64,000 nt of DNA from positions 1 through 64,000 of the forward strand of contig JANQOK010000017.1 of assembly GCA_028289645.1 (NCBI GenBank). The letters are read 5' to 3'. Below the pieces are notes generated by a model. That model saw only the letters and a program-made list of their open reading frames with translations. It was not told where the DNA came from and ran no database searches. Positions 58,505-64,000 of this stretch are shown piece after piece; positions within the stretch are counted from its first letter, which is position 1; each line of letters starts with the position of its first letter. Source of the DNA: Anderseniella sp. (lineage in GTDB: Bacteria > Pseudomonadota > Alphaproteobacteria > Rhizobiales > Aestuariivirgaceae). Position numbers and translations under genes: made by a program.

Positions 58505-60025
58505 CTATTGCCCCCTCGATGCGCGGCCGGCAAAGCGGACCGCCTCTTCAGCTGCCCTGAACAGGGCCTTGGCCTTGTTGATGCACTCGTCCTGTTCGGC
58601 CTGTGGCACGCTGTCGGCCACGACACCGGCACCGGCCTGCACGAACATCTTGCCGTCCTTGACCAGGGCGGTGCGCAACACAATGCAGGTGTCGGTCTCT
58701 CCGGTGGCTGAAAAATACCCGACGCAGCCGGCATAGATGCCGCGCTTGGTGCTTTCCAACTCGTCGATAATCTCCATGGCACGCACTTTCGGTGCGCCCG
58801 ATACGGTGCCGGCCGGAAAGCCGGCACTCAATGCATCGATGGCGTCATACCTGTCGTCCAGTTCGCCTTCAACGTTGGACGAGATGTGCATGACCTGGCT
58901 GTAGTATTCCATAATGAACTGGTCGGTGACCTTGACCGAGCCGATCTTGGCCACTCGTCCGACGTCATTGCGGCCCAGGTCCAGCAACATCAGGTGTTCA
59001 GCCAGTTCCTTGGGATCTGCCAGCAGCTCTTCGGCCAGTGCGCGGTCTTCCGCTGGTGTCGCACCGCGTGGTCTGGTTCCGGCGAGCGGGCGGATCTCCA
59101 CCTTGCCGTCGCGCACCCTGACCAGGATTTCCGGACTGGAGCCGGTGACGGCAAAGCGATCGAACTCGAGATGGTACAGGAACGGCGATGGATTGACCCG
59201 GCGCAGGGCCCGGTACAGCGAGAACGCCGGCAGGGTGAACTCGGTTTCGAAGCGCTGTGACAGGACCACCTGGAAGACATCGCCGGCGGCGACATATTCC
59301 TTGGCCTTCAACACCATCTCCTTGTAGTCCTCAGGGGTGGTGTCCGAAATCGGCTCACCGATCGGGGCCGCGTCCGGGTCTTCATAGCTGTGCAGTTCCA
59401 AAGGCCGGTCAAAGGCATCGACGACTGCGTCGAGCCGGTCGCAGGCCCGTGCGTAGGCCGCCTTGGCTGAGACATCCGCGTCCGGGAACACCGGGGTGAT
59501 GACGGTGACCTCGTCCTTCACAGCGTCGAAAATGGCCATGATGGTCGGGCGGATCATAATGCCGTCGGGCACACCGAGCACGTCCTCATTGGGTGCCGGC
59601 AGTTTTTCCATCTGCCGCACCATGTCGTAACCCATGTAGCCGAACAGGCCGGCGGCCATCGGCGGCAGGTCGGCCGGCACGTCGAAATGATTGGCTGCCA
59701 GCAGGTTACGCAGCGACTGCAGCGGCGGCGCCTCATCGGCAACGAACGGGCGGTCCGGATCGATCAGTGCCCGCGTATTGATTTCAGCAGTTTCTCCGGT
59801 CACCCGCCAGATCAGGTCAGGCTTCATGCCGATCATCGAATAGCGGCCGCGCACGGCGCCGCCTTCCACCGATTCCAGCAGGAACCGGTAAGGTGCATTT
59901 CGGGTCAGCTTCATGAATGCGGACACCGGGGTCTCCAGGTCCGCCACCAGCCGCGTATACACGACCTGCGCCTTGCCGGCCTGATAGCAGGTGTTGAAGC
60001 TGTCGCTGTCAGGAGCGATCTGCAT
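58505..60025 (-). CDS. trpE: Anthranilate synthase component I
   Basis: YKEMVLKAKEYVAAGDVFQVVLSQRFETEF, RPLAGTRPRGATPAEDRALAEELLADPKELAEHLMLLDLGRNDVGRV, PAGTVSGAPKVRAMEIIDELE. Confidence 0.97.
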   Translation of the reverse strand: MQIAPDSDSFNTCYQAGKAQVVYTRLVADLETPVSAFMKLTRNAPYRFLLESVEGGAVRGRYSMIGMKPDLIWRVTGETAEINTRALIDPDRPFVADEAPPLQSLRNLLAANHFDVPADLPPMAAGLFGYMGYDMVRQMEKLPAPNEDVLGVPDGIMIRPTIMAIFDAVKDEVTVITPVFPDADVSAKAAYARACDRLDAVVDAFDRPLELHSYEDPDAAPIGEPISDTTPEDYKEMVLKAKEYVAAGDVFQVVLSQRFETEFTLPAFSLYRALRRVNPSPFLYHLEFDRFAVTGSSPEILVRVRDGKVEIRPLAGTRPRGATPAEDRALAEELLADPKELAEHLMLLDLGRNDVGRVAKIGSVKVTDQFIMEYYSQVMHISSNVEGELDDRYDAIDALSAGFPAGTVSGAPKVRAMEIIDELESTKRGIYAGCVGYFSATGETDTCIVLRTALVKDGKMFVQAGAGVVADSVPQAEQDECINKAKALFRAAEEAVRFAGRASRGQ

Positions 60026-60049: not shown

Positions 60050-60115
60050 TTTGCGAAATGGGTTTAGAGCAGGTTTGGCGAATGATGTGAAGCCGTTTCG
60101 GATTTGGAACGAGGT
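60050..60115 (+). repeat. Putative dispersed intergenic repeat, copy 3 (partial)
   Basis: GCGAAATGGGTTTAGAGCAGGTTTGGCGAATGATGTGAAGCCGT resembles rc of the 38873-38915 segment (TTCAAAGTGTTAGACCAACTTCATCGTTTCATGAAGCCGT). Confidence 0.35.
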
Positions 60116-60419
60116 TTTTGGGTGGGAGTGGAAGAAAGTTCGAACTGAATTGGATCAACGCCTGCCATCGGCCATCGCCTCAATTGGAGGTAAAGGTGTC
60201 TTTGGCCTGGGATGTATTCACGATCAATCGCAAGTCTTCGCCCAGCAATACCGCTGCTTATGTGTGGAGTGGGAGCGATCGGATTGAAATTCTAGAAGCT
60301 GGATGCTGCTCGGCAGCAGCAATTGAATGCCCGGTTACAAGACATTGCCAAGCGAGTTCTATTCGTGATCAAACGCAGCCCGTGATATGACAAACGCAAC
60401 TCAGCCCCATGTGCCTGAA

Positions 60420-62026: not shown

Positions 62027-62341
62027 TTAGAAATGGCGGGCGGGTGGTGTGATCGAGACGTGTTCGATATATGGTGCCAGTTCCGACGGAATTTTTATAA
62101 TAGGTTTGTCGAACGGTGCGCTTGCGCCGATGGTCTCAGAAATTCGAGGAAGCGGGTCGGGCAATTTGCGCATGCAGCTTTGGAAAACCTCATCAAAATC
62201 TTCCGGTTTGGCCACAAAAGAAAGCGTCACACGACCGCACCCGGTCTTCTCTAGTCCGCGCGCGACAAAAAAATCGACTATTTTGCTGCGCATCTCCTCT
62301 GTCTGACCTAGTTCGCTGAGGCTGAGAGAGAATCTGATCAT
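62027..62341 (-). CDS. 104-aa protein resembling a stand-alone prodomain of the adjacent S8 peptidase
   Basis: GLEKTGCGRVTLSFVAKPEDFDEVF aligns ungapped with prodomain GFEVTGSGQFSITARCSKKVYETVF; SELAPYIEHVSITPP parallels DELAAIIDDAYIQWP. Same strand, directly upstream of the peptidase; AAGGA upstream of ATG. Confidence 0.65.
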   Translation of the reverse strand: MIRFSLSLSELGQTEEMRSKIVDFFVARGLEKTGCGRVTLSFVAKPEDFDEVFQSCMRKLPDPLPRISETIGASAPFDKPIIKIPSELAPYIEHVSITPPARHF

Positions 62342-62664: not shown

Positions 62665-64000
62665 GTGGCAGGAAAAGAAAATCTGAATTTTCTTAAAAAC
62701 AGAGCGTTGCGTCTGCTTGAAGATGTTCTGATCACCTTTGGCGCAACTGACAGCACGAACTATTTTTCCGATACTCCAATCCGAGTAACCGTTTGGCGTT
62801 CTTTTGCTGCAGATCCGAGATGCCAGCATCGACTATTGATTGAGACGAACAATCGAATACGGGGAAACAGTGCGCTCACTTTGCTTCGAACAATAATTGA
62901 AGAGTACCGAGCATCTTTTGCCGCTGGCTCAAAAACCAGGTTTTCCGAACCAAAACTGGTGGCGTTGGGCAACATAGTTGTCGTAACTGCGGATATGGAC
63001 GCAATGATCCGCGCGATACTTCCAAGTACGGTCTGGTTCTCTCAACTGGATCCGGAAAAAGTCCAGGGATGGATTTCCGATCTGGGATATGTACCGGAAA
63101 CCAGAAACATTTTTGAGCTTAGAGAGTTTCTGACGAATTCTGATCAAATAGCCCTATGGCGATTTCTGGCGGCATGGGTCGCTATCAGGAATGCTGATGC
63201 CGAAGCCCATAAAGCAGCTACGAAGTCGGGCAAGCCAAGTCAGAGTGTCCGGTGGCGCGTTTTAGGAGATACCTGTTCTGCGCTTTTGAAGGTCGCGGCG
63301 CACGATCTGCAAAATTCAATCGACCCGTACGAGCAAAAAGCCGCCCATCGCGCTGTCAAACGCTTCTTCAAGAAACTGCTGAACGATTACATTGATGAGA
63401 TTAAGCGTTTTGCTGAGATCCAAAGCAGTTCTAAAGACAAACAGCCTGCTATCTGGTCAATTGACCTGAACCGGACTGGAGATTTGGCATGTATGAAATC
63501 GCGTAAGACCGTAAAGATTGACGCGGCTGAGAACGTTTTTCAGATTTCAACCAAAGGTATTAACTGGGCGATACTCGATAGTGGTGTCGACGCTACTCAC
63601 AAGGCGTTCTTGAAACCCGGTACCGATCTCAACGGAGAAACAAGCCCAGCTCAATCCAGAGTTAAAGCTACGTACGATTTCACTCGCTTGCTGAATTTTT
63701 TCGAAGGGGATTACAGGAAGATAGTACCTGAAGAACAGTTGATCGAGGCCAAGAAACTGCATCCGAACGAGACTGAAAACAATGCCGTTCTGCTATTTCT
63801 TTATACAACGGGGTTTGTCGAACGCAACGATCAGTTGTCCAGGAAAAACTTTTCTCACGCATTGCAAGATGAGGCAACTCTGACAAACGTCCGCAATTAT
63901 GTGGAAGACGTCAAAAGGCGTCTTACAAACGGTGATTACCTTGACTGGTATTTATTGGAGCCGTTTTTGCGAATTCCCCATTGTCCGTCACATTATGTGC
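62665..64000 (+). CDS. S8-family peptidase-like protein with long N-terminal region (partial; runs off the window, not in the ORF track)
   Basis: Open frame with no stop from GTG 62665 to 64000 (VAGKENLNFLKNRALRLLEDVL...); catalytic-Asp motif KGINWAILDSGVDATHKAF at about 63556-63612; GGAG 12 nt upstream of GTG. Confidence 0.75.
   Translation, partial: MAGKENLNFLKNRALRLLEDVLITFGATDSTNYFSDTPIRVTVWRSFAADPRCQHRLLIETNNRIRGNSALTLLRTIIEEYRASFAAGSKTRFSEPKLVALGNIVVVTADMDAMIRAILPSTVWFSQLDPEKVQGWISDLGYVPETRNIFELREFLTNSDQIALWRFLAAWVAIRNADAEAHKAATKSGKPSQSVRWRVLGDTCSALLKVAAHDLQNSIDPYEQKAAHRAVKRFFKKLLNDYIDEIKRFAEIQSSSKDKQPAIWSIDLNRTGDLACMKSRKTVKIDAAENVFQISTKGINWAILDSGVDATHKAFLKPGTDLNGETSPAQSRVKATYDFTRLLNFFEGDYRKIVPEEQLIEAKKLHPNETENNAVLLFLYTTGFVERNDQLSRKNFSHALQDEATLTNVRNYVEDVKRRLTNGDYLDWYLLEPFLRIPHCPSHYV

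Follow-up and report, generated by a model that had tools for sequence, protein, structure and literature searches.

A subtilisin-type protease gene with a metallo-beta-lactamase-fold partner in Anderseniella sp., probably a subtilisin version of recently described antiviral protease-nuclease pairs

The protease gene and its genomic setting

The window, the whole stretch of DNA analyzed here, covers bases 1-64000 of contig C17 (446,726 bp), and the contig reads on beyond its edge. A plus-strand frame starting with GTG at 62665 was described in a preliminary description as open to the window edge, and direct reading confirms that it is stop-free through 64000 (445 codons). Since it runs past the sequence end, ordinary ORF lists omit it; it appears only when open ends are allowed. 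In the contig, the coding part ends at 64797 and is followed by a stop codon (64798-64800), giving a protein of 711 aa in full. The GTG start is backed by the homologue L019, which has an ATG at an equal distance from the common ALRLLEDVLITFGA motif.

The full protein matches Peptidase_S8 (Pfam, E=1.6e-36). The catalytic Asp that had been placed near residue 305 is Asp305. The preliminary description had also left the His and Ser motifs to be sought past 64000, naming an early stop without them as the outcome that would speak against a protease; both are present, HGTHVAG with His451 (base 64015) and GTSMAAP with Ser652, and with Asp305 and the oxyanion Asn565 (in AAGN) they complete the S8 motif set. 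The truncated frame is a genuine bacterial subtilisin-type protease of peptidase family S8. It is no chance frame, since Alphaproteobacteria, Actinomycetota, and Planctomycetota have homologues of full or nearly full length. There is apparently no signal peptide, and the protease is apparently cytoplasmic. Its earlier designation as a second S8 peptidase holds as well, as another S8 gene lies close by (Table 1).

Table 1. Features of the protease locus (window coordinates; domain boundaries within the protease are transferred from L019 and approximate)
Feature	Position	Strand	Basis or remark
trpE 5' direct repeats, degraded	59846-59911, 60075-60101; copies at contig 65972-66037, 66051-66077 (past window)		bracket the S8-MBL stretch
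Second S8 peptidase, 500 aa	60420-61922	-	Pfam E=1.6e-26; in putative island; region before S8 domain unrecognised
104-aa protein	62027-62341	-	no Pfam match; in putative island; strand opposite to main gene
S8 (subtilisin-type) peptidase gene, window part	62665-64000	+	open frame, Pfam, homologues
I9-like prodomain (most likely), strand-helix-two strands-helix, residues ~53-121	62821-63027	+	L019 model, VIA-align to 3afg, 3whi, 2z2z
Predicted helical insertion inside prodomain, residues ~122-262	63028-63450	+	L019 model, helices 114-251
Predicted last prodomain strand(s), IWSIDLNR region, residues ~263-275	63451-63489	+	L019 model, strands 254-265; conserved NR motif
Catalytic Asp305 (WAILDSGVD)	63577-63579	+	invariant in subfamily alignments
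Predicted helical insertion between Asp305 and His451 (window part), residues ~341-446	63685-64000	+	spacing 146; L019 model, helices 329-430

Directly 3' of the protease, past the window, lies a gene for a metallo-beta-lactamase (MBL) fold protein of 375 aa (contig 64821-65948). Its best start is the ATG at 64821, 20 bp past the protease stop and preceded by AGGAAGG; nothing is encoded between the two genes. Upstream, the protease is flanked by a small ORF, the second S8 gene, and trpE, while GNAT, methyltransferase, HMG-CoA reductase, UbiA, and PPDK genes follow beyond the MBL. The HMG-CoA reductase, UbiA prenyltransferase, and PPDK/PEP-utiliser-type genes are consecutive (L002:12152-16892, contig 68152-72892) and possibly form an unusual isoprenoid-related cluster.

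The flanking DNA has a GC content of about 60%, the protease-MBL pair one of 46-56%. In a congeneric sister species (G947) the protease is missing; its DNA matches the window at 87% identity as far as position 60119, just upstream of trpE, and is unrelated thereafter. The 5' region of trpE recurs in degraded form directly after the MBL gene (66 nt at 85%, 27 nt at 93%), and we read these repeats as the probable footprint of an insertion or recombination at trpE. The stretch bounded by trpE sequence measures about 5.9 kb and holds both S8 genes, the small ORF, and the MBL gene. Because of its low GC content, its absence from the sister genome, and the trpE sequence at both ends, it looks like an acquired island. 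A search for a plasmid source of the repeat downstream of the MBL gene found none. A phage origin was rejected: scans of viral contigs gave no MBL relative, and the S8 query matched generic subtilases only.

The protease N-terminus and the Asp-His insertion

The preliminary description reported an N-terminal region of about 300 aa that belonged to no recognised domain. Such a region does precede Asp305, and it has no sequence family: there is no match above cut-off in Pfam and none at all in NCBIfam or PADLOC. It is recognisable by structure, since a model of L019 (52% identical; 18 sequences in the alignment; pTM 0.87, mean pLDDT 79), used as a proxy for the window protein, aligns with the propeptides of pro-subtilisins. 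The N-terminus of this model consists of a strand (55-61), a helix (67-81), strands (89-100), a helix (102-112), a long helical part (114-251), and strands (254-265), which is the strand-helix-strand-strand-helix-strand order of an I9-type fold N-terminal to S8, with a large insertion. In VIA-align, unautoprocessed pro-subtilisins align from residue 30-53 on, propeptide included, over 376 (3afg, Z 40.9), 337 (3whi, Z 37.5), and 344 residues (2z2z, Z 35.9), whereas mature subtilisins align over about 267. The subtilisin fold itself is evident from the Z-scores of 35-41 to subtilisins. The most likely identity of the N-terminus, based on this model, is an I9-type prodomain whose second helix is separated from its last strand by a helical insertion of about 140 aa. 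Pfam sees no I9 prodomain in the window protein, and the match is a structural one obtained with L019 alone. A sub-threshold Pfam match of the first 300 aa to GlutR_dimer (E 0.025-0.18) was set aside in favor of the structural match to prodomains.

A second insertion separates the Asp and His motifs. The large insert announced for this place is real, as Asp305 and His451 are 146 residues apart; it comprises about 106 aa and is helical in the L019 model. Its description as unusual is right only in part. The spacing is far above that of 81 other S8 rows (median 38), but a large spacing is common to the whole subfamily, where it ranges from 95 to 150. Nor is such an insertion unique to the subfamily, as some Streptomyces S8 proteins have a spacing of 175-181.

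The MBL partner

The MBL neighbour is the best clue to the function of the protease. The S8 search delivered 17 genes of the subfamily (window, L011-L016, L019-L022, L187, L218-L222), and 16 of them have an MBL gene directly downstream. Beside other S8 relatives none was found in 84 cases, with flanks checked that were in part short. The pairing spans three phyla. The exception is the close relative L019, which has no MBL gene downstream; a search of the rest of its genome found none either. The S8 gene of L016 is broken in two frames, and the MBL gene of L221 was detected by tblastn alone. L017 and L018 were rejected as members and set apart as a sister subfamily because an alpha/beta-hydrolase gene lies downstream and the large insertion is missing. 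In this sister subfamily (L017, L018, L028), S8 genes without a large Asp-His insertion pair with the hydrolase gene; therefore, the partner effectors of S8 proteases may not all be of one kind.

The MBL protein contains the metal-binding motifs SHxDxDH, GDA, and HHGS (at 67, 247, and 279). It matches the NCBIfam model of Avs1a at 1.1e-40, which is under the curated cut-off of that model, and its three best-scoring PADLOC families are LmuA (1.1e-53), Avs1a (6.7e-29), and RTasMBL. We searched 398 genomes of the phylum with a profile of S8-paired MBLs, and plasmids by tblastn. Both recovered MBLs of known protease-nuclease systems, located beside trypsin-HamA and a helicase (L190), a trypsin-STAND protein (L192; PADLOC Avs1a 2.9e-194), trypsin ABC-three-component proteins (L195, L202, L203, L205), caspases (L191, L196-L198, L206), or a second S8 type in rhizobia (L194, L199-L201). 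Judged by these matches, the MBL is homologous to the HamM, Avs1a, and CanC pro-nucleases. In a maximum-likelihood tree of the MBLs the class of the partner protease changes five times, the minimum, against a mean of 16.8 after shuffling. Partner class clusters on the tree, with weak support (38/83) for the clade of S8-paired MBLs.

Two further arrangements were seen in these searches. In rhizobial plasmids, the gene of the second S8 type, which is distantly related, and that of an MBL from the same superfamily overlap; the overlap is about 4 bp in L194, L199, and L200 and 1 bp in L201, and Shedu or caspase genes are close by in two of these four cases. At L189, a patatin gene lies directly upstream of a related MBL gene; up to the end of the contig no protease was seen.

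A trypsin-like or caspase partner converts the pro-nucleases HamM and CanC into DNases; the cut sites of HamM were mapped to two inserted loops, and Avs1a is cut in a comparable loop during infection (PMC12799240, Tuck et al., Science 2025). The MBL studied here carries two loop insertions as well. The distance from HxxxDH to NxSS is 154 residues versus 55 in Escherichia coli YcaI (ComEC type) and ranges from 115 to 208 among protease-paired MBLs. In an AlphaFold2 model of the L022 homologue (pTM 0.75, from 3 sequences only), the loops correspond to low-confidence or disordered stretches (111-144 and 223-237). MBLs with trypsin or caspase partners have a conserved Ile or Gly cut residue in their loops, while among the S8-paired MBLs (n=16) no cut residue conserved in both loops was found, and none is evident in loop 1; an Ala near loop 2 (Ala219) is conserved in 15 of them. 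Loop 2 of the Anderseniella MBL is short, with 30 residues versus 48-76 in most S8-paired MBLs.

A putative defence pair and its known counterparts

We consider it rather probable that protease and MBL form a subtilisin-activated pro-nuclease defence pair. The first gene (62665-64797) would encode a cytoplasmic-looking protease held inactive by its own I9-like prodomain, with the two helical insertions as plausible sensor or partner-binding parts, and the second (64821-65948) a HamM/Avs1a/CanC-type pro-nuclease with two additional active-site loops. Upon an infection signal the protease would cut these loops, and the cut MBL would degrade DNA and stop the phage, probably along with the cell. 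We read the pair as defence because of the nearly constant pairing, the homology to gated MBLs, the loops, the best fold match (ComEC), the clustering on the tree, the island or plasmid setting, and the defence-type neighbours of related loci. The failure to find a conserved cut residue, the short loop 2, L019 without an MBL, the weak clade, and the lack of a sensor gene among the flanking genes of the window locus speak against it.

The neighbours bear on a different division of labor, in which the protease chiefly activates another nearby effector and the MBL acts as an additional effector or as a regulator. Plasmids carry many of the related loci, and the neighbourhood of these loci includes patatin, Tle1-like lipase, TIR, FRG, cyclase-E2, caspase, or Shedu genes. 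Lipase genes are found near eight of the 17 pairs (patatin in L012, L015, L022, and L187; Tle1-like in L013, L021, and L220; LCAT-like in L014), TIR with cyclase and E2 near L011, and FRG near L014 and L016. A patatin or Tle1-like phospholipase, TIR, or FRG protein could thus be the main target, and the alpha/beta-hydrolase partner of the sister subfamily fits this as well. We regard it as unlikely, since these neighbours vary and are missing at the window locus, L020, L218, and L219, while the MBL is almost always present.

Less likely still is that the MBL is a non-nuclease metal-dependent hydrolase working with the protease, for instance a phosphodiesterase on nucleotides or lipid head groups. 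The best fold match of the MBL is the MBL domain of ComEC (9ic4, Z 21.6), nearly equaled by the phosphorylcholine esterase Pce (Z 20.5), and the nuclease role of S8-paired MBLs is a prediction. However, the closest characterised relatives, HamM and CanC, are DNases once activated (PMC12799240), and the PADLOC scores are best for LmuA, Avs1a, and RTasMBL. A plain intracellular protease whose insertions are specific to its lineage and whose MBL neighbour is functionally meaningless would agree with the long inserts of Streptomyces proteins and with L019, but is very improbable given a pairing kept across three phyla (16/17 vs 0/84) and the island and plasmid setting.

The pair is thus probably a subtilisin version of the recently described antiviral protease-nuclease pairs. 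In 2025, trypsin-like proteases and caspases were reported to activate pro-nucleases by proteolysis (PMC12799240); if our reading of a subtilisin-activated pro-nuclease is true, this mechanism also recruits subtilisins. This step is partly anticipated because the same paper mentions proteases of 'other diverse families', with S8 unnamed in its main text. We found no description of S8 and MBL pairs in the literature; the supplement of that paper, which was outside our scope, may list S8 partners. The system would be compact, with two genes and a sensor that can be searched for within the protease itself, and an inhibitory prodomain, a classical device of secreted enzymes, could act as an intracellular immune switch. 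More tentatively, subtilisins might be a third protease class that switches on gated MBL nucleases with the sensor inside the protease, the helical insertions sensing the trigger and releasing the prodomain; we hold this fuller version to be somewhat doubtful.

Among known systems, IetAS (S8 peptidase IetS and ATPase IetA) likewise ties an S8 peptidase to phage defence, but similarity to IetS is weak (30.4 bits versus a cut-off of 900) and the partner here is an MBL instead of an ATPase. Pro-subtilisins (Tk-subtilisin, Tk-SP, subtilisin E) share the I9 prodomain and S8 catalytic fold (Z 36-41 on the L019 model) and differ by lacking the predicted insertions in the prodomain and between Asp and His; the protease here, unlike them, apparently has no signal peptide. 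HamMAB (nuclease-protease Hachiman), AVAST type 1 (Avs1a/Avs1b), and the Lamassu and DRT variants have a homologous MBL nuclease beside a protease. Their protease is a trypsin domain fused to HamA, STAND, or LmuA, and their MBL gene lies upstream, whereas here the protease is S8 and the MBL gene lies downstream. No helicase, STAND, SMC, or RT gene was seen among the flanking genes, nor were HamA with HamB or an SMC-type LmuB. Canu (caspase-nuclease, KaeCanABC; PMC12799240) also has a stand-alone protease gene upstream of a homologous two-loop MBL pro-nuclease; its protease CanA is a caspase, however, and its middle gene CanB has no counterpart here. Canu, HamMAB, and Avs1 are defined by caspase, trypsin fusion, and sensor genes; a search for these at the locus found none, and it therefore belongs to none of them. 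By analogy, the pair may work as these three systems do.
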